A DNA stretch of 64,000 nucleotides from positions 1,240,001 to 1,304,000 of the forward strand of contig NZ_JAEQNA010000001.1 of assembly GCF_016722895.1 (NCBI RefSeq), in the 5' to 3' direction. The translations under genes and the position numbers were made by a program. Under the pieces are notes generated by a model. That model worked only from the letters and a program-made list of their open reading frames with translations. It was not told the DNA's origin and ran no database searches. Every line of letters starts with the position of its first letter. The first letter of the stretch is position 1. This document shows, piece by piece, positions 5,516 through 16,649 of this stretch. This stretch comes from Ramlibacter aurantiacus. Lineage in GTDB: Bacteria > Pseudomonadota > Gammaproteobacteria > Burkholderiales > Burkholderiaceae_C.

Positions 5516-6676
5516 CTACCAGGGCAGGAGCTGCGATTCCTTCAATTCGATCCCGAACCCCGGCGCATCCGAGGGCCGCACCTTGCCGTCCACCGGCACC
5601 GGCACACCTGGAATCTTCATCGCCTCGGCCAGCGGCACGCCCGGGTCGGACCCCAGCCAGTACTCCGCCAGCGAGGCCTCGGGCAGCGCGAAGTGGAAGT
5701 GCTGGCCGAAGGGCAGGCCGGCGCCCGAATGCGGAATCGTGGCCAGGCCCGCGGCCTCGCCGATGGTGTAGACCTTCAGCGCCTCGGTGAGCCCGCCCAG
5801 CCAGCGGATCTCCGGTTGCAGCACGTCGACGCAGCGCCGGTCGACCAGTTCACGGAAGGCGTGCCGGCCCTTGTGGTCCTCGCCGGTGGCAATGGGCAGC
5901 GTGGGCACCGCGCGCTTGAGCGCCACCAGGCCGTCGGTGTCGTGCGGCATCAGCGGCTCCTCGATCCAGCGCAGCCGGTAGGGCTTGAGGCGCTCCATCA
6001 GCCGGGCGGCGAAGTCGACGTTGAAGGACATCACCGGGTTGAACATCAGGTCGGCGTCGGGCCCCACCGCCTCGCGGGCCCGGGCGATCTTTTCCTCCAG
6101 CCGGTTCAGGCCCTCGGTGCCCTCTTCGTAGTGCACCGGGTTGCTCACCTTGAAGGCCTTGAAGCCCAGCTCCATCGACCAATCGAGGTCGTCGCTGGTG
6201 GCATAGCAGGCGATGGCTTCGCGGCAGGGCCCGCCGATCAGGCTGTAGACCGGCACCCCCAGCAGCTTGCCCTTCAAGTCCCACAGCGCCAGGTCGATCG
6301 CGCTGCGCGCCACCGAGGTGAGGCCGGTGGGCCCGAAGCGCTGGGTGGAACGCCACATCAGGTCGGCCAGGAACTCGATGGCCAGGCAGTCGCGCCCCTC
6401 CAGCAGCGGTGCGTAGTGCTCGCGCACCAGCGGCTCGACCAGGTTGCCCCAGTGGCACACGCCCAGGCCCCAGGTGCCGTCCTCGGCCGTCACCTGCACC
6501 CACATCTCGCCGGCCACCTCGCCCGGGATCTTGCGCAACTGGCGCGGGAATTCGGGGTACTTGTTGATCGGGAAGGCCCGGCGCGCCGACTGGTTGTAGC
6601 TCGGCCGGCGCGGCGTGGTGACGACCGGCCGGGCCGGCAGGTCCAGGCGCACCGCCCGGATGGACTTGATCTTCAT
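5516..6676 (-). CDS. Enolase-superfamily (mandelate racemase/MLE) protein, L-rhamnonate dehydratase-like
   Basis: A 386-residue protein with an N-terminal capping domain and a C-terminal TIM barrel. The C-terminal stretch (LAEYWLGSDPGVPLAEAMKI, then VPVDGKVRPSDAPGFGIEL) resembles the L-rhamnonate dehydratase group. Candidate active-site parts are K173/K176 (GFKAFKV), E239 (WIEEP), E266 (TGEDH) and H316 (IPHSG). The residue at the usual first metal ligand is N213 (LMFNPVMSF) where RhmD has Asp, and the Asp partner of the catalytic His appears as E289 (QPEIRW). The substrate is therefore uncertain. It lies 8 bases downstream of the IclR gene and is probably co-transcribed with it. Confidence 0.75.
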   Translation of the reverse strand: MKIKSIRAVRLDLPARPVVTTPRRPSYNQSARRAFPINKYPEFPRQLRKIPGEVAGEMWVQVTAEDGTWGLGVCHWGNLVEPLVREHYAPLLEGRDCLAIEFLADLMWRSTQRFGPTGLTSVARSAIDLALWDLKGKLLGVPVYSLIGGPCREAIACYATSDDLDWSMELGFKAFKVSNPVHYEEGTEGLNRLEEKIARAREAVGPDADLMFNPVMSFNVDFAARLMERLKPYRLRWIEEPLMPHDTDGLVALKRAVPTLPIATGEDHKGRHAFRELVDRRCVDVLQPEIRWLGGLTEALKVYTIGEAAGLATIPHSGAGLPFGQHFHFALPEASLAEYWLGSDPGVPLAEAMKIPGVPVPVDGKVRPSDAPGFGIELKESQLLPW

Positions 6677-6684
6677 GCGGGCTC

Positions 6685-7479
6685 CTACTGCAGCATGTGC
6701 GAGATCAGCTCGGCCGTCTCCAGCGCGGCGGGAACCTCGGCCTCCAGCGCTTCGAGCGACCGCCCGGCGATGCTGATGGCGGCGGCCGGCCGCTCGGCAC
6801 CGTCGAACACGGGCACCGCGATGCAGCACGAAGTGGCCGTGTTCTCGCGGAATTCGGTGGACCAGCCGCGGTCGCGCGTGGCGTCGAGCTCGGCCAGCAG
6901 CGCCGGCACCGAGGTCAGGGTGTTGGGCGTGCGCGCCACCATCGGCCGCTCGGCCAGGATGGCCTGCACCTGCGCCTGCGGCAGCCAGGCCAGGATGGCC
7001 TTGCCCAGGCCGCAACAGTGCACCGGCACGGTGCGCCCGAAGCGCGAGTAGATGGTGGGCAGGTGCGGCTTGTCGGCGCCGGCCAGGATCATGATGCGCC
7101 CCTGGTGCAGCACGCCCATGTTCACCCGCGTGTTGAGCTTCTGCGCCAGCGCCTGCAGGTGCGGCAGGGCATCGGTGCGCAGCCGGTGCGTGTCCAGCAG
7201 GCGCGAGGCCAGCGGCAGCACCGACAGGCCGATGGACAACCGGGCGTCGCGCGGGTTCTGCTGCAGGAAACCGGCGGCGACCAGCGTCTGCACCAGCCGG
7301 TGCGTGGTGGGCCGGCTCATGCCGGCGATCACGGCCAGCTCGCCGATGGTGGGCGGGTGTTCGCACTGACCCACCTTGTCCAGCAAGGCCAGCGCCTTGC
7401 CCAGCGTCTTGACCATGGCCTGGGGTGACGCCTCACCCATGTTGGCTTCTGCCTCCGGCACAGCGGCTGCCATCTCCAC
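6685..7479 (-). CDS. IclR-family transcriptional regulator
   Basis: A 264-residue regulator. An N-terminal winged helix-turn-helix (about residues 22-85, with TIGELAVIAGMSRPTTHRLV) precedes the IclR effector domain (VNMGVLHQGRIMIL; VPVHCCGLGKAILAWL; GWSTEFRENTATSCCIAVPV). IclR proteins usually repress or activate a neighbouring catabolic operon and respond to a small acid. It diverges from the ABC-transporter operon, and a perfect inverted repeat at 7526-7546 in between is a likely operator. The start could also be the ATG 13 codons downstream (7440). Confidence 0.88.
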   Translation of the reverse strand: MEMAAAVPEAEANMGEASPQAMVKTLGKALALLDKVGQCEHPPTIGELAVIAGMSRPTTHRLVQTLVAAGFLQQNPRDARLSIGLSVLPLASRLLDTHRLRTDALPHLQALAQKLNTRVNMGVLHQGRIMILAGADKPHLPTIYSRFGRTVPVHCCGLGKAILAWLPQAQVQAILAERPMVARTPNTLTSVPALLAELDATRDRGWSTEFRENTATSCCIAVPVFDGAERPAAAISIAGRSLEALEAEVPAALETAELISHMLQ

Positions 7480-7525
7480 TCCGTCTCATGTCGATGCCCG
7501 CAAGCCTACCGCAAAGCGCAGACGG

Positions 7526-7546
7526 CTTGTCCACAATCTGGACAAG
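7526..7546. promoter_or_regulatory. Perfect inverted repeat, putative IclR operator
   Basis: CTTGTCCA at 7526-7533 and TGGACAAG at 7539-7546 are exact reverse complements separated by five bases. A further ATGTCC lies just right at 7547-7552. The site is in the divergent gap between the IclR gene (starts 7479, minus) and the ABC operon (plus). IclR-type regulators bind short palindromes of this kind. Binding itself is inferred. Confidence 0.65.
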
Positions 7547-7645
7547 ATGTCCTCCGGGTAAACGAGAGCACCCGTTCGTGACCGAGCGTCACATCATTCG
7601 GGCGCAGTTTCCGTCGTGACTCGTCGCTCAAAGGAAGTAGCTCAG

Positions 7646-8839
7646 GTGCGTGTGGAATCGACAAGCAGCGGGGCGGTCTCTCGCCCCCACCCGGCCGCCG
7701 AGGCCGCGTCCGAGGCGCCCGCCGCCGTCCCGGAGCCCGGGTTGGCGGTCGAGGTGCGCGGCCTGCGCAAGCACTACGTGGGCAAGGGCGCCGACCGCCG
7801 CCGCAGCGAGGTGGTGGCCATCGACGGCGTGGACCTGCAGGTGCGCGCGGGCGAACTGGTCGTGCTGCTGGGCCCCAGCGGCTGCGGCAAGACGACGCTG
7901 CTGCGCTGCATCGCGGGGCTGGAGCGGCCGCAGCACGGCGAGGTGCGGGTGCACGGGCGCATCGTGTTCTCGGCCGAGGCGGGCGTGTTCGTTCCGCCCG
8001 AGCACCGCCACATCGGGATGATGTTCCAGTCGTACGCGCTGTGGCCGCACATGACCGTGCAGGACAACGTGGCCTATCCGCTGGCGGGCCACGCGCCGCG
8101 GGCGCAGCGCGAGCAGCAGGTCGACGGGATGCTCGAGCGCCTGGGCATCGCCGGGCTGGGCCACCGCTATCCGGGCGAGCTCAGTGGCGGCCAGCAGCAG
8201 CGCGTGGCGCTGGCCCGCGCGCTGATCGCCTCGCAGTCGCTGGTGCTGTTCGACGAGCCGCTGTCGAACGTGGACGCCAAGGTGCGCAAGCGCCTGCGCG
8301 CCGAGCTGCGCGAGGTCAAGCGGCGCAACGGCTTCGCCGGCGTGTACGTCACGCACGACCAGGAAGAGGCCATGGAGCTGGCCGACACGCTGGTGGTGAT
8401 GGAAAGCGGCCGCATCCGCCAGGTCGGCTCGCCCCGCGCGGTGTACGAGCGCCCGGCCTCGATCTACGTGGCGGACTTCGTCGGCGACATCAACCGCTGG
8501 CCGGCGCGGCTCGTCGAGCCGGGCCGGGCCCGCTGCGAACTGGGCACGCTGCAGCTGTCCGACCGCCCGGCCCAGGCCCGTGACGGCGACGACGGCTGGG
8601 TGGGCATCCGGCCCGAGCACGTGAACCTGGCACCCGCCTCCGCCGGTACGCTCATCAACCGGGTGCCGGCCATCGTGCAGGACATCGTGCACCTGGGTGC
8701 GCGCATCGAATGCCGCATGAGCGCCGGCGGGATGCCGCTGACCGCCCATGTGGCCGACGCCCAGGCCCACCACCTGTCGGTGGGCCAGGCGGTGGACGCG
8801 CTGCTGCCGCCGGAGATGCTCAGATGGCTGCCACGCTGA
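7646..8839 (+). CDS. ABC transporter ATP-binding protein, FbpC/PotA type
   Basis: A nucleotide-binding subunit of about 397 residues with Walker A GPSGCGKTT, Q-loop MMFQSYALWPHMTV, signature LSGGQQQRVALARAL, Walker B VLFDEPLSNVD and a C-terminal TOBE-like domain (WVGIRPEHVNL). This layout belongs to the ferric-iron, polyamine and phosphonate import group. I chose GTG at 7646 because AAGGAAG sits eight bases upstream; GTG at 7616 or 7652 is possible. It overlaps the permease start by 16 bases. The neighbours suggest an organic acid substrate rather than iron. Confidence 0.88.
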   Translation: MRVESTSSGAVSRPHPAAEAASEAPAAVPEPGLAVEVRGLRKHYVGKGADRRRSEVVAIDGVDLQVRAGELVVLLGPSGCGKTTLLRCIAGLERPQHGEVRVHGRIVFSAEAGVFVPPEHRHIGMMFQSYALWPHMTVQDNVAYPLAGHAPRAQREQQVDGMLERLGIAGLGHRYPGELSGGQQQRVALARALIASQSLVLFDEPLSNVDAKVRKRLRAELREVKRRNGFAGVYVTHDQEEAMELADTLVVMESGRIRQVGSPRAVYERPASIYVADFVGDINRWPARLVEPGRARCELGTLQLSDRPAQARDGDDGWVGIRPEHVNLAPASAGTLINRVPAIVQDIVHLGARIECRMSAGGMPLTAHVADAQAHHLSVGQAVDALLPPEMLRWLPR

Positions 8840-10560
8840 GCCTGCCGACCTCCGGGCGGGCCGAGCGACGGCCCCGGGCCGGCGGCCGGCTGCCGGTGCT
8901 GCTGGCCCTGGCGCTGACGGCGGCGACGGCGGTGGTGGTCTTCTATCCCATGCTGGCCATCGGCCTGCGGGCCTTGTTCCCGGCCGAAGGGTCGAGCCTG
9001 GAGCTGTGGCGCCAGACCCTTGCCAGCCGCGACCTGCACGTGGCCGTGCGCAACACCGCCATCCTCGCGGTGGCGACCACGGCGATCTCGGTGCCGCTGG
9101 GCACCTTCTTCGCCTGGCTGATCGAGCGCACCGACGCCCACTGGGGTGCGCTGTCGCGCCTGCTGCCGGTGGTGCCGCTGCTGTTGCCGCCGGTGGCCAT
9201 GGCCATCGGCTGGCTGTTCCTGGCCGATCCGCGCGCGGGCTTCCTGGCCAAGCCGCTGGTGGCCGGGTTCGCCGCGATCGGCATCGAACTGGACCCGTCC
9301 AGCCTGGCGATCCAGAGCTGGCCGGGCCTGGTGTTCCTGTACGTGCTGTGGGCGGTGCCGCATGTGTACGTGGTGGCGGCGGCCGCGTTCGGCAACATCG
9401 ATCCCTCGCTCGAGGAGGCGGCGCGCATGTGCGGCAAGGGTCGGCTGCGCTGCTTCTGGGAAGTGGCCGTGCCCTCGATCCGGCATGCGGTGGGCGCCTC
9501 GGTGCTGCTGTGCGTGATCTCCAGCATCGGGCTCTATTCGATCGCGGCGCTGATGGGAACGGCCGCGCGCATCGACGTGCTGTCGGTGCACATCTACCGG
9601 CTGCTCAATTTCGCCTACCCGCCCAGGATCGGGCAGGCCGTGGTGATCGGCCTGCTGCTGATGCTGTTCATCGGCTCGCTGTGGCTGCTGCAGCGCAAGC
9701 TCGCCTCGCGCGCCGGCGCCGCCACCGTCGGCGGCATGGGCGTGCGCCCCAACCGCGTGGCCCTGGGCGGCTGGCGCTGGCCGGCTCGGCTCCTGATCGT
9801 CGGCTACGTGGTGCTCACCTCGGTGCTGCCGCTGCTGGCGCTGTTCATCGTCGCCCTGCAACCGTTCTGGCGGCCGGTGATCGACCCGGGAATGCTGAGC
9901 CTGGCCAACTTCCGCGAGATGGCCGAAGCCAGCATGCCGCGCATGGCGATCGCCAACAGCACCTTGCTGGCGCTGGCCACGTCCACCGGCGTGGTGATGG
10001 TGGCCGGCATCCTGGCCATCCTCGCCAGCGGCCTCGGCGGCGCGCTGGAGAAGGCCATGGGCGTGGCCACCAAGCTGCCCTCGGCGGTGCCGCACATCGT
10101 GTTCGCGGTGGGCGTGCTGATCGCCTTCGGCTTCGCGCCGCTGCACCTGCAGGGCGGCTGGCTGATCCTGCTGCTGGCCTACCTGGCGGTGTACCTGCCC
10201 ACCGCCACCATCACCGCCGAATCGGCCGTGCGCCAGGTCGGCTCGCAGCTGGTGGAGGCTTCGCGCGTGTTCGGCGCCTCGCCGGCCCGCACCTTCTGGC
10301 GGGTGCAGCTGCCGCTGATCCTGCCGGGCCTGGCTGCGGGCTGGGCCTCGATCTTCGCGCTGGTGCTGGGCGAGCTGAACGCGGCGGCCATCCTCTCGGG
10401 GCCGCGCAACCCGACCATCGGCTACATGATCCTGACCCTGTTCGACAACGGCACCTACTCGCAGCTGGCGGCCATCGGCAGCCTGATCGGCGTGGTGTCG
10501 GCGATCACCGTGTCCTTCGTCCTGCTGCTTGGGCGCCCCCGCTACCACGCCAGCAGCTAG
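8824..10560 (+). CDS. ABC transporter permease with two fused permease domains (FbpB-like)
   Basis: A 578-residue inner-membrane protein with roughly twelve hydrophobic segments, built from two binding-protein-dependent permease halves as in FbpB/ThiP. Each half carries an EAA-type loop that would contact the ATPase: EEAARMCGKGRLRCFWEVAV in the first and VEASRVFGASPARTFWRVQL in the second. The ATG at 8824 lies inside the end of the ATPase gene. With that ATPase and the following binding protein it forms a complete importer. Confidence 0.88.
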   Translation: MAATLSLPTSGRAERRPRAGGRLPVLLALALTAATAVVVFYPMLAIGLRALFPAEGSSLELWRQTLASRDLHVAVRNTAILAVATTAISVPLGTFFAWLIERTDAHWGALSRLLPVVPLLLPPVAMAIGWLFLADPRAGFLAKPLVAGFAAIGIELDPSSLAIQSWPGLVFLYVLWAVPHVYVVAAAAFGNIDPSLEEAARMCGKGRLRCFWEVAVPSIRHAVGASVLLCVISSIGLYSIAALMGTAARIDVLSVHIYRLLNFAYPPRIGQAVVIGLLLMLFIGSLWLLQRKLASRAGAATVGGMGVRPNRVALGGWRWPARLLIVGYVVLTSVLPLLALFIVALQPFWRPVIDPGMLSLANFREMAEASMPRMAIANSTLLALATSTGVVMVAGILAILASGLGGALEKAMGVATKLPSAVPHIVFAVGVLIAFGFAPLHLQGGWLILLLAYLAVYLPTATITAESAVRQVGSQLVEASRVFGASPARTFWRVQLPLILPGLAAGWASIFALVLGELNAAAILSGPRNPTIGYMILTLFDNGTYSQLAAIGSLIGVVSAITVSFVLLLGRPRYHASS

Positions 10561-10595
10561 CTCCATCCCCAGCCCAGAAGACCAGGAGACCCCCC

Positions 10596-11621
10596 ATGCG
10601 CCGCCACCGCCTCGCTTCAGCCATCGCCGCCACCGGCTTCGCCCTGCTTGCCGGTGCGGCCGCCGCCCAGGCCCTGGGCACGCAGGAGCTGCCTCCCGAG
10701 GTGGTGAAGGCGGCGCAGGCCGAAGGTCAGGTCATGATCTATTCGTCCGAGGACGAATCGCAGCAGCGCTTCACCCTGGCGGCCTTCGAGAAGAAGTACG
10801 GCATCAAGGGCAGCTTCATCCGGTTCCCCACCGGGCCGCTGATGCAGCGCTTCAACACCGAGCACGACGGCGGCAAGCCGCAGGCCGACGTGGTGAGCGT
10901 GAGTTCGCCGATTCCCTTCCGCATGCACGCCGATCGCTTCTCCCAGCTCACGCCGCAGGGGGTGCCGAACCTGGCGCAGTGGCCCAAGGACGCGGTGCAG
11001 GGCAACTTCCTGAACCACACCATGGACATCGTGGCGCTGGTCTACAACACCGAGCAACTCAAGCCCGCCGAGGTGCCCAGGACCTGGTCCGACCTGGCCG
11101 ACCCCAAGTGGAAGGGCAAGTTCCTGCTGACCGACCCGCAGGTGGCGGACAACTACATGGGCTGGCTGGACGCGGTGGAGCGCGCCCACGGCATGGACCT
11201 GCTGCGCAAGATCGCCACGCAGCAGTACAAGGTGACGCCCTCCGGCGCTTCCGGCGTGCAGCAGGTGGCCGCCGGGGCCTACGTGTTCAACGCCCCCACC
11301 TTCACTGCCTTTTCCAAGCAGCTGATCGAGAAGAAGGCGCCGATCGCCATCCAGTACCTGTCGAACCCGACCGTGATCTCCCCACGCTCGATGGCGATCG
11401 CGGCCAAGGCGCCGCACCCGAACGCCGCGCGCCTGTTCGTCAACTGGATGCTGTCCGAGGAAGGCGTGCGCACCTACTGCAGCCATGCCAGGACCTCGGT
11501 CATCGGCGACCCCGCCGGCTCGCGCGGCTGCGTGGCCTTCCGCGACGGCGAGAACATGCGCTTCGACGTGCCCGAGGAGCGCCGCCGCGCGATGGCCAAG
11601 GCCCTGGGGGTGGCCAACTGA
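10596..11621 (+). CDS. ABC transporter periplasmic substrate-binding protein (FbpA/ferric-type fold)
   Basis: A 341-residue secreted protein. Residues 1-26 form a signal peptide (MRRHRLASAIAATGFALLAG, then an AAAAQA cleavage region). The body (VMIYSSEDESQQRFTLAAFE, ADVVSVSSPIPFRMHADRF, ARLFVNWMLSEEGVR) is the extracellular solute-binding family used by iron, thiamine and 2-aminoethylphosphonate systems. AGGAGA ends seven bases before the ATG. I do not see a convincing paired-tyrosine iron site, and the genes downstream are catabolic, so an organic ligand is more likely. Its stop shares a base with the next ATG. Confidence 0.85.
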   Translation: MRRHRLASAIAATGFALLAGAAAAQALGTQELPPEVVKAAQAEGQVMIYSSEDESQQRFTLAAFEKKYGIKGSFIRFPTGPLMQRFNTEHDGGKPQADVVSVSSPIPFRMHADRFSQLTPQGVPNLAQWPKDAVQGNFLNHTMDIVALVYNTEQLKPAEVPRTWSDLADPKWKGKFLLTDPQVADNYMGWLDAVERAHGMDLLRKIATQQYKVTPSGASGVQQVAAGAYVFNAPTFTAFSKQLIEKKAPIAIQYLSNPTVISPRSMAIAAKAPHPNAARLFVNWMLSEEGVRTYCSHARTSVIGDPAGSRGCVAFRDGENMRFDVPEERRRAMAKALGVAN

Positions 11622-12631
11622 TGTCCCCCGCCACCCTCTGCGCCACGCCCGTGGAGCACCCGGCCGCCTGGACCTCGGCCCGCCTCGGCGGACGACAGGC
11701 CATCACGCGCCGGCTCATGGGCGAGGAGCTGGCAGGCCTGGACCGCCTGCTGGCGCGCACCGCGCACCTGCCGCCGCAGGGCGCCACCCGCGCCGACTTC
11801 GACGAGCCGGCCGTCAACCGCCTGATGGACGAGGTGCGCGCCATCCTCACCGAGGGCCGCGGCGTGGTGCTGCTCGCCGGCATCGACACCGACCGCTACG
11901 CGCCGGAGGCGATGGAACGGATCTACTGGGGCATGGGCACGCACCTGGGAACGGCCGCCGTGCAAAGCCGCGGCGGCGACCGGCTGGGGCGCGTCGAACA
12001 GGACGACCAGGACCCGGTGCAGCGCGGCTACCGCTCGTCCAGCGAGCTGCGCATGCACACCGATTCCTACGAGCTGATCGGGCTGATGTGCATCCGCCAG
12101 GCCGCACGCGGCGGCCAGAGCGCCCTGGTCAGCTCCCTGGCCATCCACAACGTGCTTCTGCGCGAACGGCCGGAGCTGCTCGCGCCGCTGTACCGCGGCT
12201 TTCCGATGGCCATTCCCGAGGCGCGGCACAGCGCCCGGCCGATCACCGACACCGCCATCCCGGTGTTCTGCTGCGTCGACGGCGTGGTCAGCTGCAACTA
12301 CGCCGGCAGCTTCATGCGCGCGGCGGCGCAGCAGCTGGGGCAGGCGCTGCCGCCGGAGCTGGACGAAGCGCTGCGCGTGTTCTCCGAGATCGCCGAGCGC
12401 GACGAGCTGGCGCTGCGCTTCATGCTGGAGCCCGGCGAGATCCTGCTGTGGAACAACTTCACCAACCTGCACTCGCGCACCGAGTTCGAGAACGACGACG
12501 GGCACAGGCGCCTGTTGCTGCGGCTCTGGCTGCACGCCGGGCAGCCCAGGCCCACCGTGCCGCAGCTGCATGAACGCGCCCGGGTCTACGACCGGGTCTA
12601 CCAGGAACATGCCAAGGAGGTTCACCCATGA
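11621..12631 (+). CDS. TauD/TfdA-family Fe(II)/2-oxoglutarate dioxygenase
   Basis: A 336-residue cytoplasmic oxygenase. The facial triad is visible as H146-x-D148 (ELRMHTDSYEL) and distal H284 (NFTNLHSRTEF), with candidate 2-oxoglutarate Arg residues near 297-301. Such enzymes hydroxylate or release sulfite, amine or other groups from small acids. The N-terminal 80 residues differ from classical TauD and recall the clavaminate-synthase/gamma-butyrobetaine branch. It is coupled to its neighbours (stop 12629-12631 overlaps the next ATG). Substrate unknown. Confidence 0.8.
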   Translation: MSPATLCATPVEHPAAWTSARLGGRQAITRRLMGEELAGLDRLLARTAHLPPQGATRADFDEPAVNRLMDEVRAILTEGRGVVLLAGIDTDRYAPEAMERIYWGMGTHLGTAAVQSRGGDRLGRVEQDDQDPVQRGYRSSSELRMHTDSYELIGLMCIRQAARGGQSALVSSLAIHNVLLRERPELLAPLYRGFPMAIPEARHSARPITDTAIPVFCCVDGVVSCNYAGSFMRAAAQQLGQALPPELDEALRVFSEIAERDELALRFMLEPGEILLWNNFTNLHSRTEFENDDGHRRLLLRLWLHAGQPRPTVPQLHERARVYDRVYQEHAKEVHP

Positions 12632-13593
12632 AGGTCGTCCTCGCCAGCCGCGTCGCGCTCGACCCGGTGCTGAGCGTGCTGAAGTCGCAGCCGGAGATCG
12701 AGTTGATCCACTGCAGGGACCACGGCGAGGTGCCGCGGGCCCTGGAGGGCGCCGACCTGGCGGTGCTGTCCGACCCCAAGGGCGCCGAAGGGCCGCCCAT
12801 CGTGCGGGCGCTGCAGCAGCCGGGTCGCACCGTGCGCTGGGTGCAGGTCACCACCGCCGGCGCCGACGGGCTGCTGATGCACGGCCCCCTGCCGCCCGAG
12901 CTGGTGCTGACCAACCAGGGCGGCGCGGTGGCGCCCACGGTGGCCGAGCACGCGATGGCCATGATCCTCGCGATGACGCGGCAGATGCCCACCATCCTGG
13001 CGCGCTCATCCCGGCGCGAATGGATCAAGGAGTTCTCTCCGCCGCTGATGGCGCTGGAGGGACGCACGCTGGCGATCGTCGGCTACGGGCACCTGGGCCG
13101 GCAGGTCGCCAAGCGCGCGCGCGGCTTCGACCTGAAGATCGTCGGCCTCTCCCGCTCGCTCACCAGCGATCCGCTGGCCGACGAGATGCTGCCGCTGGAG
13201 CGGCTGCACGACGCGCTGGCGCGCGCCGACGTGGTGGCCGTGACCGTGGCCTCGGTGCCGGCCACCCGGCACCTGCTCGACGCGACGGCCTTCCAGACCA
13301 TGAAGCGCGGGGCGCTGCTGGTGAACGTGTCGCGCGGCGAGACGGTGGACCAGGTGGCGCTGCGCGCCGCCCTCCAGGACGGCCGACTGGCCGGCGCCTT
13401 CATCGACGTGGCCGACCCGGAACCGCTGCCGGCTGACGACCCGCTCTGGGACGCGCCCAACCTGATCGTCTCGCCGCACTCGGCCGGGCACGGCGGCACC
13501 CGCACCGGCGCGCGCATCGCGCAGACGCTGACCGAGAACCTCGCGCGCTTTCGCGCCGGCCAGCCCCTGCTGCACCGGCTGGAGACCGCATGA
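12628..13593 (+). CDS. D-2-hydroxyacid dehydrogenase (NAD(P)-dependent)
   Basis: A 321-residue oxidoreductase of the D-isomer 2-hydroxyacid dehydrogenase family. The Rossmann loop is VGYGHLGRQVAKRARGFDLK near the middle. The catalytic Arg region is LVNVSRGETVDQVAL, followed by Glu in DPEPLPADDPLW and His in SPHSAGHGG. It interconverts 2-oxo and D-2-hydroxy acids, which fits a pathway in which dehydratases produce 2-keto acids. The start overlaps the upstream stop and its own stop overlaps the next ATG, so it is an internal operon gene. Confidence 0.87.
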   Translation: MKVVLASRVALDPVLSVLKSQPEIELIHCRDHGEVPRALEGADLAVLSDPKGAEGPPIVRALQQPGRTVRWVQVTTAGADGLLMHGPLPPELVLTNQGGAVAPTVAEHAMAMILAMTRQMPTILARSSRREWIKEFSPPLMALEGRTLAIVGYGHLGRQVAKRARGFDLKIVGLSRSLTSDPLADEMLPLERLHDALARADVVAVTVASVPATRHLLDATAFQTMKRGALLVNVSRGETVDQVALRAALQDGRLAGAFIDVADPEPLPADDPLWDAPNLIVSPHSAGHGGTRTGARIAQTLTENLARFRAGQPLLHRLETA

Positions 13594-14762
13594 AGATCAC
13601 CGCGGTCGAACAACTGCACGTCAGCGGCGGCTGGGACAACTGGTCCTTCCTCAAGCTGAGCACCGACACCGGGCTGGTCGGCTGGTCCGAGTTCAACCAG
13701 GCGCGCGGCCGGCGCGGCCTGGCGCAGGTGATCGAGGGCCTGTCCGGACTGGTGGTCGGCGAAGACCCGCGCAACGTGTCGCGCCTGGCGGCCCGGCTGT
13801 TCTCGGCCACCCAGTCGACCACCGGCGGGCTGCAGTCGCTGGCCGCCGGCGCCTTCGAGAACGCCTGCCTGGACCTCAAGGCCAAGGACCTGGGGATCCC
13901 CGTGCACGAGCTCCTGGGCGGCGCGCTGCGCCGACGGCTGCCGCTGTACTGGTCGCATGCGGGCCTGTACCGGGCGGTGCACGCGCACCTGTTCGGTCCG
14001 GTGATCGACGCCGCCGCCGTGCGCTCGCCAGCCGACCTGACCGGCCTGGGTGCCGAGGTGCGGGGCAAGGGGTTTCGCGCGCTCAAGACCAACCTGCTGC
14101 GCTTCGCGCCCGGCGAGCGCACCGCGGTGCTGCGTGGCAGCGGTCCATTCGAGCTGAACATCGAGAAGCCCATCGTGGACACCGCGGTGTCGCAGCTCGA
14201 AGCCCTGCGGCACGGGGCCGGCGACGGGATCGGCCTCATGCTGGACCTCAACTTCAACTTCAAGCCCGAGGGCTTCCGGCGCCTGGCGCGCGCGCTGGAG
14301 CCGTTCGACCTCACCTGGCTGGAGATCGACAGCCACTCGCCCGCGGCGCTGGCATCGATCCGCCAGTCGACCCGGCTTCCGATCGCCTCGCTGGAGGCGG
14401 TGCTGGGCCGCCGCGCGCTGCTGCCTTACCTGGAGGCTCAGGCGGTGGACGTGGCCATCGTCGACGTGGTGTTCAACGGCATGGCCGAGTCGATGAAGAT
14501 GGCCGCGCTGCTGGACGCCTTCGACGTGAACGTGGCGGCGCACAACTCGCACGGGCCGCTGGGATCGCTCATGAGCGCGCACTTCTGCGCGGCTATTCCC
14601 AACTTCAGGATCATGGAATTCGACCCCGACGAAGTGCCCTGGCGACGGCAGCTGCTCACCGCGCCGTTCACGGTGGAAGGCGGCGAGTTCGAGCTACCCG
14701 CGGCGCCCGGCTGGGGCGCCGACATCGACGAAGCCGTGGCGCGCGCGCACCCGGCGCATTGA
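13590..14762 (+). CDS. Enolase-superfamily (mandelate racemase/MLE) dehydratase-like enzyme
   Basis: A 390-residue protein distinct from the enzyme at 5516-6676. Candidate catalytic K166 lies in ALKTN. Metal ligands look like D219 (LMLDLNFNF), E245 (WLEID) and E269 (IASLEAVLG). D292 (IVDVVFNG) and H318 (AAHNSHG) suit a His-Asp dyad. The motifs resemble galactonate/gluconate-type acid-sugar dehydratases, but I cannot name the substrate. Its position after a D-hydroxyacid dehydrogenase supports an acid-sugar pathway. ATGA coupling to the upstream gene is clear. Confidence 0.82.
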   Translation: MKITAVEQLHVSGGWDNWSFLKLSTDTGLVGWSEFNQARGRRGLAQVIEGLSGLVVGEDPRNVSRLAARLFSATQSTTGGLQSLAAGAFENACLDLKAKDLGIPVHELLGGALRRRLPLYWSHAGLYRAVHAHLFGPVIDAAAVRSPADLTGLGAEVRGKGFRALKTNLLRFAPGERTAVLRGSGPFELNIEKPIVDTAVSQLEALRHGAGDGIGLMLDLNFNFKPEGFRRLARALEPFDLTWLEIDSHSPAALASIRQSTRLPIASLEAVLGRRALLPYLEAQAVDVAIVDVVFNGMAESMKMAALLDAFDVNVAAHNSHGPLGSLMSAHFCAAIPNFRIMEFDPDEVPWRRQLLTAPFTVEGGEFELPAAPGWGADIDEAVARAHPAH

Positions 14763-14800
14763 GAGCACCCCACCCCAGGACCACCCCCAGGAGACTAGCC

Positions 14801-15823
14801 ATGGACGATCGCCACGTCATCTTTCCCCGCCGCCGCCTGCTCGCCGCCGGCGGACTCGCGGCGCTGGGCCTGTCCGGCCGGCCGGCGCGCGCGCAGGAGA
14901 TGCTCCGGCAGGCGACCCTCATCGTCGGCTCGCCCGCCGGCGGCGCCACCGACAAGGTCGCTCGCATGTACGCGGACGCGCTGCGGGGCCGCTATGCCGA
15001 GAACGTCATCGTCGAGAACAAGCCCGGCGCGGGCGGCGCCATCGCCTACGAGGGCGTCAAGCGCAGCGGCGTGAAGGACGGCAGCCTGGTGTTCCTGTCG
15101 CCGGCCTACCCGATCGTGATCTCGCCCCACCTGGTCAGCACCCTGCCCTACGACACGCTGCGCGACTTCGTGCCGGTGGCACCGGCGGGGCGCTCGTGCA
15201 TGACCTACGCCGTGGGCCCGGGCGTGCCCGACAACGTCGCCAGCTTCGCCCAGTACCTGGACTGGTGCAAGGCCAATCCCAGGCAGGCGCTGTACGCCGC
15301 GCAGACCGGCTCCAGCCAGCACCTGCTGGGATCGGTGCTGGCGCTGTCCACCGGGGTGCCGCTGGAGAACGTTTCCTACAAGGGCGACGCCCCGGCCATG
15401 CAGGACCTGATGGGCGGCCACGTGCCGGCAGTGGTGTTGCCCATCGCCAGCGCGCTGCCGCTGTACCGCCAGCGCAAGCTGCGCGTGCTGGCCACCGCCA
15501 AGGCCACCCGCACGCGCTTCATGCCGGACGTGCCCACGTTCGCCGAGCTGGGGCACCCGGACGTGCTGTTCCAGGACTGGATGGGATTCTTCGCGCCGGC
15601 CGACACGCCGCCCGGCCAGGTGCAGCGGCTCAACGGAGCCATCGCCGAGATCGCCCGCTCGCCGCGCGGCGTCGAGTCGCTGGAGGCGCTGGGCATCGAG
15701 AGCGAAATCGCCGATCCGCAGCAGTTCGTCGGCATGGTGCGCACCGACCACCAGCGTTATGCCGGGTTCATCGCACGCACCAAATTCCGCGAGGCCTTCG
15801 AAAAGGCCGGCGGCGGACGCTGA
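14801..15823 (+). CDS. Bug/TctC-type tripartite tricarboxylate transporter substrate-binding protein
   Basis: A 340-residue periplasmic binding protein. The N-terminus has a twin-arginine-like signal (FPRRRLLAAGG, hydrophobic run, ARAQE). The mature part has Bug hallmarks: LIVGSPAGGATDKVAR, VENKPGAGGAIAYEGVK and FMPDVPTFAELGHPD. CCAGGAGA lies upstream of ATG 14801. No TctA/TctB membrane genes are nearby, which is common for the many orphan Bug proteins of Burkholderiales. It may share a membrane partner or act as a sensor. Confidence 0.9.
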   Translation: MDDRHVIFPRRRLLAAGGLAALGLSGRPARAQEMLRQATLIVGSPAGGATDKVARMYADALRGRYAENVIVENKPGAGGAIAYEGVKRSGVKDGSLVFLSPAYPIVISPHLVSTLPYDTLRDFVPVAPAGRSCMTYAVGPGVPDNVASFAQYLDWCKANPRQALYAAQTGSSQHLLGSVLALSTGVPLENVSYKGDAPAMQDLMGGHVPAVVLPIASALPLYRQRKLRVLATAKATRTRFMPDVPTFAELGHPDVLFQDWMGFFAPADTPPGQVQRLNGAIAEIARSPRGVESLEALGIESEIADPQQFVGMVRTDHQRYAGFIARTKFREAFEKAGGGR

Positions 15824-15833
15824 GGGAGGCTCC

Positions 15834-16649
15834 ATGAGCAGCAGCCTTCTCATCGAGCCGGTCACTCCGGCCGTCGGCGCCGAGATCCGCGGGGTGGACC
15901 TGTCGCAGCCGCTGGAAGCACAGACGGTCCGCGCCATCCGGCAGGCGCTGGTCGATCACGGCGTGATCTTCCTGCGCGACCAGCGGATCGACCGTACCCA
16001 GTACGAGGCCTTTGCCGAATGCTTCGGCCAGCCGCGGCTGCCCGACAGCGGCATCATCCCGCCGCTACCCGGCTCACGCTTCACGTCCGAAGTGCGCAAG
16101 GACGAAGGCCGCGAGCGCAACATCGGCGGCAGTTGGCACACCGACCAGGTGTACCGGGCCCAGCCGAGCTGGGGCAGCATGCTGCTGTGCCGCCAACTCC
16201 CGCCGACCGGTGGCGACACGCTCTTCTCCAGCCTGGGCGCGGCCTACGACACCCTCTCCGACGGGCTGAAGAAGACGCTGGAGCCACTGCGCGCGGTGCA
16301 TTCCAACGCCGCCGTGCAGGCCCGCATGAAGACCGGGCGCGAACCCGACCCGGAAGTGGCGCACCCGGTGGTGCTGCGGCATCCGGACAGCGGCCGGCGC
16401 ATCCTCTACATCAGCCCCGGCTACACCACGCGCTTCGAGGGCTGGACCGAGGCCGAGAGCCGGCCGCTGCTGGAGTACCTGTTCCAGCATGGCCAGCGGC
16501 CGGAGTTCACGATGCGCTGGCGCTGGCGCGAAGGCTCGATCGCGTTCTGGGACAACTACCAGACCTGGCACTTTGCCGTGAACGACTATGCGGCGGGCGA
16601 ACGGGTGATGCACCGCATCGTGGTGGAAGGCACGCCCTTCGGCCGCTGA
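15834..16649 (+). CDS. TauD/TfdA-family Fe(II)/2-oxoglutarate dioxygenase (second copy)
   Basis: A 271-residue enzyme of typical TauD length. The triad is H102-x-D104 (GSWHTDQVY) and H246 (YQTWHFAVNDY), with R261 (MHRIVVEG) as the likely 2-oxoglutarate anchor. It is classical TauD/TfdA in architecture (GAEIRGVDLS near the N-terminus) and not a close copy of the dioxygenase at 11621-12631. GAGGGAGG gives a good ribosome site before ATG 15834. It is the last gene of the catabolic operon and presumably oxidises a related acid. Confidence 0.87.
   Translation: MSSSLLIEPVTPAVGAEIRGVDLSQPLEAQTVRAIRQALVDHGVIFLRDQRIDRTQYEAFAECFGQPRLPDSGIIPPLPGSRFTSEVRKDEGRERNIGGSWHTDQVYRAQPSWGSMLLCRQLPPTGGDTLFSSLGAAYDTLSDGLKKTLEPLRAVHSNAAVQARMKTGREPDPEVAHPVVLRHPDSGRRILYISPGYTTRFEGWTEAESRPLLEYLFQHGQRPEFTMRWRWREGSIAFWDNYQTWHFAVNDYAAGERVMHRIVVEGTPFGR

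Follow-up and report, generated by a model that had tools for sequence, protein, structure and literature searches.

The window, meaning the whole 64-kb stretch of DNA that was analyzed, carries a gene for an IclR-family regulator standing back to back with the first gene of a presumed uptake and breakdown operon, and the 172-bp gap between them contains an inverted repeat with further boxes beside it. The features are listed here, with reference where useful to G046, a genome of the same genus that holds the sole ortholog of the regulator found.

5516–6676, minus strand: enolase-superfamily gene directly behind iclR (MR_MLE_C and MR_MLE_N)
6685–7473, minus strand: IclR-family regulator, ATG behind GGAG (Pfam IclR_C 5.2e-38, HTH_IclR 4.2e-14)
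7526–7546, no strand: perfect 8-bp inverted repeat, by direct reading; TTGTCCA-N5-TGGACAA occurs exactly once in the source genome (5.1 Mb, 28 contigs)
7528–7544, no strand: putative primary operator core TGTCCA-CAATC-TGGACA, boxes 1 and 2; 16/17 consensus, the unique top score in the window
7548–7552, plus strand: third box TGTCC in alternating orientation, separated from box 2 by 3 bp; matched in G046 by TGTTC with identical spacing
7559–7564, minus strand: possible weak fourth box TAAACG (G046 TAAACA), tentative; GGGTAAAC conserved in G046
7646–8839, plus strand: ABC transporter ATPase (Pfam ABC_tran), first gene of the divergent presumed operon
8824–16649, plus strand: remaining presumed operon, from family searches

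The regulator belongs to the IclR family, scoring 52.5 bits against HTH_IclR (cut-off 22) and 130.8 bits against IclR_C (cut-off 24), and the solved structures closest to it are other IclR-family proteins (2g7u, 2.4e-20). Across the gap, the ATPase gene is followed by genes for a permease, a binding protein, a TauD-like oxygenase, a 2-hydroxyacid dehydrogenase and then, in this order, a second enzyme of the enolase superfamily, a receptor of the TctC type and a second TauD-like oxygenase. The overlap of adjacent ORFs suggests that the divergent genes from the ABC ATPase on form one operon, the limits of which are predicted. In an NCBIfam search of the locus proteins, none scored above cut-off among the matches listed; sugar-acid dehydratases and 2-aminoethylphosphonate-type transport figure among the highest-scoring models under threshold, the best model being L-rhamnonate dehydratase for the product of 5516–6676 (248.8 bits, under the cut-off of 393) and PhnT2 for that of 7646–8839 (also under its cut-off).

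The inverted repeat consists of CTTGTCCA (7526–7533), a centre CAATC (7534–7538) and TGGACAAG (7539–7546). A first-pass annotation had described exact 8-bp inverted arms around a 5-bp spacer and an ATGTCC beside them, and direct reading bears out both: the arms are exact reverse complements, and ATGTCC is present at 7547–7552, directly after TGGACAAG. Its placing of the palindrome at the centre of the gap is roughly right and not exact: with ATG 7473 taken as the start of iclR and GTG 7646, behind AAAGGAAG, as that of the ABC gene, the palindrome centre at 7536 lies 63 bp from the former and 110 bp from the latter. One terminator-like stem (7569–7588, minus strand; shuffle mean 0.1) lies between the palindrome and the ABC gene. 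A reading of TTGTCCACA as a DnaA box was dropped, as it left the right arm unexplained.

Palindromy by itself is weak evidence for an operator, since 68 of 5000 dinucleotide-shuffled versions of the 172-bp gap also contained 8-bp arms around a 3–8 bp centre; 36 such arm pairs, some of them nested duplicates, were listed in the 64-kb window. The full 21-bp pattern is rarer, with two places in the window at up to three mismatches (0.07 expected), the second of which has three mismatches. More specific is the fit to a published site type. In their survey, Suvorova and Gelfand (2021; PMC8222616) describe within group 1 of the IclR family a subgroup with TGT-11-ACA sites of consensus TGTYCRYW3RYGRACA. 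TGTCCACAATCTGGACA agrees with this consensus at 16 of 17 positions; the runner-up in the window reaches 13.

Conservation was followed through orthologs of the regulator. The protein of G046 is 75% identical, and the regulator was found in two of the 60 genus genomes, the window's own and G046. Among family (399), order (399) and phylum (398) genomes it was detected only in the window's own at the E-value limits used; in a sample of 99 genomes of relatives only G046 was close besides the own genome (next best 35% identical); and two further genera (6 and 21 genomes) gave no ortholog. Plasmids yielded 31 records matching the regulator, all below 60% identity, and genome_contigs four loci at 25–29% identity; in a plasmid DNA search with 7400–8900, the best 10 of 2015 matches all begin at 7811 or later, within the ABC gene. 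The genome samples overlap one another, most searches used E-value limits of 1e-35 to 1e-50, and part of the hunt scored at most six candidates per genome among the matches listed, so a distant ortholog could be missed.

The flanks of the gap align with G046 at 82.7% over 5519–7437 and 78.1% over 7747–16649, and 7438–7746 falls outside both alignments. Within this unaligned region an island is nevertheless recognizable, reading TGTCCA CAATC TGGACA AGA TGTCCT CCGGG TAAACG in the window and TGTTCA CATAG TGGACA AAG TGTTCT CGGGG TAAACA in G046. When the two gaps are compared by ungapped 37-mers, the best match is window 7527–7563, one base off the island, with identity at 28 of 37 positions (shuffles: mean 19.3, maximum 24, n=200); the best 27-mer has 21 identities, against at most 19 in shuffles. 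The G046 core agrees with all 17 positions of TGTYCRYW3RYGRACA and occupies the corresponding divergent gap, the spacing of the three boxes being unchanged and its centre lying 38 bp from the iclR start (63 bp in the window) and 98 bp from the ABC start, with start codons as read. Because a single ortholog was found, this footprint compares two sequences. The box pattern is kept in G046 and the perfect symmetry is not, TGTTCA and TGGACA being one base short of it within the boxes; as read from these sequences, the conserved unit is TGTYCA-N5-TGGACA-N3-TGTYC and not a perfect palindrome. A chance palindrome, with the regulator binding elsewhere, which the counts from shuffled gaps and from the window would allow, appears very unlikely given that pattern and spacing are kept where most of the gap is unaligned and that no other stretch of the window equals its consensus score.

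Conservation supports box 3 as part of the predicted operator. The half-site beside the palindrome, as first annotated, has its counterpart in G046, and the unit of 7526–7546 drawn at that time needs extension to take it in. The exact three-box pattern occurs once in the source genome and once in G046, and among 399 family genomes only in the window and at a single locus of G336. In this 2.7-kb locus two short, near-identical stretches adjoin each other, and the locus showed no detected IclR gene. Membership of box 4 in the operator is more tentatively proposed. With it, a second palindrome would span 7548–7564 (centre 7556, 20 bp from the first), which reaches 11/17 of the consensus in the window and 12/17 in G046 and is not above window background, as background positions reach 11/17 in 15% of draws and 12/17 in 4%. 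The best neighbor of the window site at 16–24 bp is another place, with 12/17 at -22.

As a positive control, the consensus was followed through the genus. In the 60 genus genomes, TGTYCRYW3RYGRACA occurs exactly at eight places (one for the backward control), and seven of the eight adjoin an IclR gene, the G046 ortholog (L075) among them; at the eighth, L080, no IclR gene was detected in the 3-kb locus. Five of the seven lie upstream of the IclR gene (L075, L079, L083, L084 and L085, with start codons as read) and two between the IclR gene and the next gene (L081 and L082). The seven are not independent, as one is the ortholog and the helices of L084/L085 and of L079/L083 are near-identical. 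With up to one mismatch, the window's genome and G046 each have two places and the backward control none; the second in G046 (L077) adjoins another IclR gene. At L081 and L082 the exact matches (1501–1517 in each) fall between the IclR 3' end and the start of the next gene, read from translations as a TctC-type receptor and a Rieske-type oxygenase, which suggests that these sites may be target promoters of those IclR regulators.

The association does not extend to IclR genes at large. Upstream of 28 other IclR genes of relatives the best match is at most 14/17, and at these 28 loci, with the window and its ortholog left out, a similar pattern was not enriched upstream over controls (p = 0.25 and 0.15), two loci reaching 11/12 versus one of 224 control stretches. 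The TGT-11-ACA motif is not a general IclR mark in these relatives, a result to be anticipated if site type varies among IclR subgroups, as the survey pictures it (PMC8222616). Two observations on individual loci may be added. Apart from the sites of the window and its ortholog, seven IclR-adjacent sites were compared for partners at 19–20 bp, which are clearer at four (scores out of 17: L077, 15; L079, 13; L082, 13; L083, 15) and not at three (L081, 11; L084, 10; L085, 10); L077, L079 and L083 have similar helices and, near position 1501, TGT-11-ACA-like palindromes 19 bp apart. The recognition helix starts with [S/T]-R-[P/A] in all nine site-bearing IclR proteins (P0001 of the window, L075, L077, L079 and L081–L085) and in one of the 28 others, L036, which has a 14/17 match upstream. 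This helix pattern was seen post hoc, in related proteins grouped by site, and is a lead only.

These data also bear on whether the conserved island might be the operator of a regulator other than the IclR protein. Conservation names no protein, and binding by the IclR protein is a prediction; however, the sequence is of the published IclR TGT-11-ACA type (PMC8222616), and exact consensus matches in the genus adjoin IclR genes at seven of eight places, so that another reader of the site has, in our estimate, as slim a chance as a fortuitous palindrome. Least probable of all, to the point of being nearly negligible, is that the island is conserved mainly as a core promoter with incidental symmetry, for although its most strongly conserved bases include TGGACA and GGGTAAAC, a promoter scan of 7440–7680 recognized no sigma-70-type promoter in the gap and the third box would be left unexplained; the island may still overlap a promoter while being an operator.

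The palindrome had also been put forward as a means of finding other members of the regulon, and here it disappointed. TTGTCCA-N5-TGGACAA with up to three mismatches gave 270 places in the source genome against 305 for the backward control, hence no regulon signal, and no second intergenic site with at most one mismatch was found in that genome. Its one-mismatch place C27:40697 is within a 174-codon ORF; since the only other consensus match with up to one mismatch in the source genome lies inside a 174-codon ORF, the regulon looks local. The three-box pattern with up to three mismatches was found at 26 + 26 places in the source genome (control 14 + 22) and at 39 + 45 in G046 (control 26 + 21).

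Taken as a whole, the best explanation, and in our view a highly probable one, is that 7526–7552, perhaps extending to 7564, serves as operator for the divergent IclR-family regulator. The natural candidate operator of the first-pass annotation is in this respect well chosen, given the 16/17 consensus, the site kept in G046 and the company of IclR genes. A dimer of the regulator would read boxes 1 and 2 (TGTCCA-N5-TGGACA), and the third and perhaps the fourth box, which lie on the same DNA face, would probably be used by further subunits. Bound in this way, the regulator would control, by repression or activation, its own gene (autoregulation) together with the adjoining enolase-type gene in one direction and the ABC-transporter/oxygenase/dehydrogenase operon in the other. 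This control would be altered by a pathway compound that binds to the C-terminal domain. It is conceivable, if rather doubtful, that the operator is a composite on which an IclR tetramer can pair its reading heads over the boxes in two ways (1-2 and 3-4, or 2-3), an effector shifting control between the divergent units, and that the [S/T]-R-[P/A] helix start marks the readers of this box type in the genus.

The operator reading provides a precise candidate site for an uncharacterized regulator whose uptake and breakdown operon is uncommon. It also indicates that the published IclR consensus picks regulator-adjacent sites well in this genus (seven of eight places). The general picture of how IclR regulators act is unchanged, and the switch would be of an ordinary bacterial type.

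Comparison with known systems is made with the survey of Suvorova and Gelfand (2021; PMC8222616). Like the TGT-11-ACA sites described there, the window core adjoins the regulator gene, and its centre, 63 bp upstream of iclR, falls inside the -20 to -80 zone that holds most IclR site centres; it differs in the off-consensus C at position 11 and in the distance of 110 bp from the palindrome centre to the operon start (GTG 7646 reading). Three-box IclR sites, reported there for 32 orthologous groups, share with the window three boxes of alternating direction. Tandem IclR sites 18–22 nt apart are reported for 94 orthologous groups, and the window has a possible second palindrome 20 bp away, though with a weak fourth box. 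The pair TGGACA-N3-TGTCC may be set against the group 2 consensus quoted there, TGRAACAN1-2TGTTYCA: the 15-bp span TGGACAAGATGTCCT fits the N1 form in length, whereas the inner bases differ. The regulator itself is not classed as PcaR/PcaU/PobR, since its score against TIGR02431 (130.6 bits) is under the cut-off of 284.75. For the PobR operator of Acinetobacter, given in Table 1 of the survey as TTGTCCGATSATCGGACAR, the inner G/C pair is A/T in the window palindrome, and the arms TTGTCC/GGACAA and a centre of equal length are shared.
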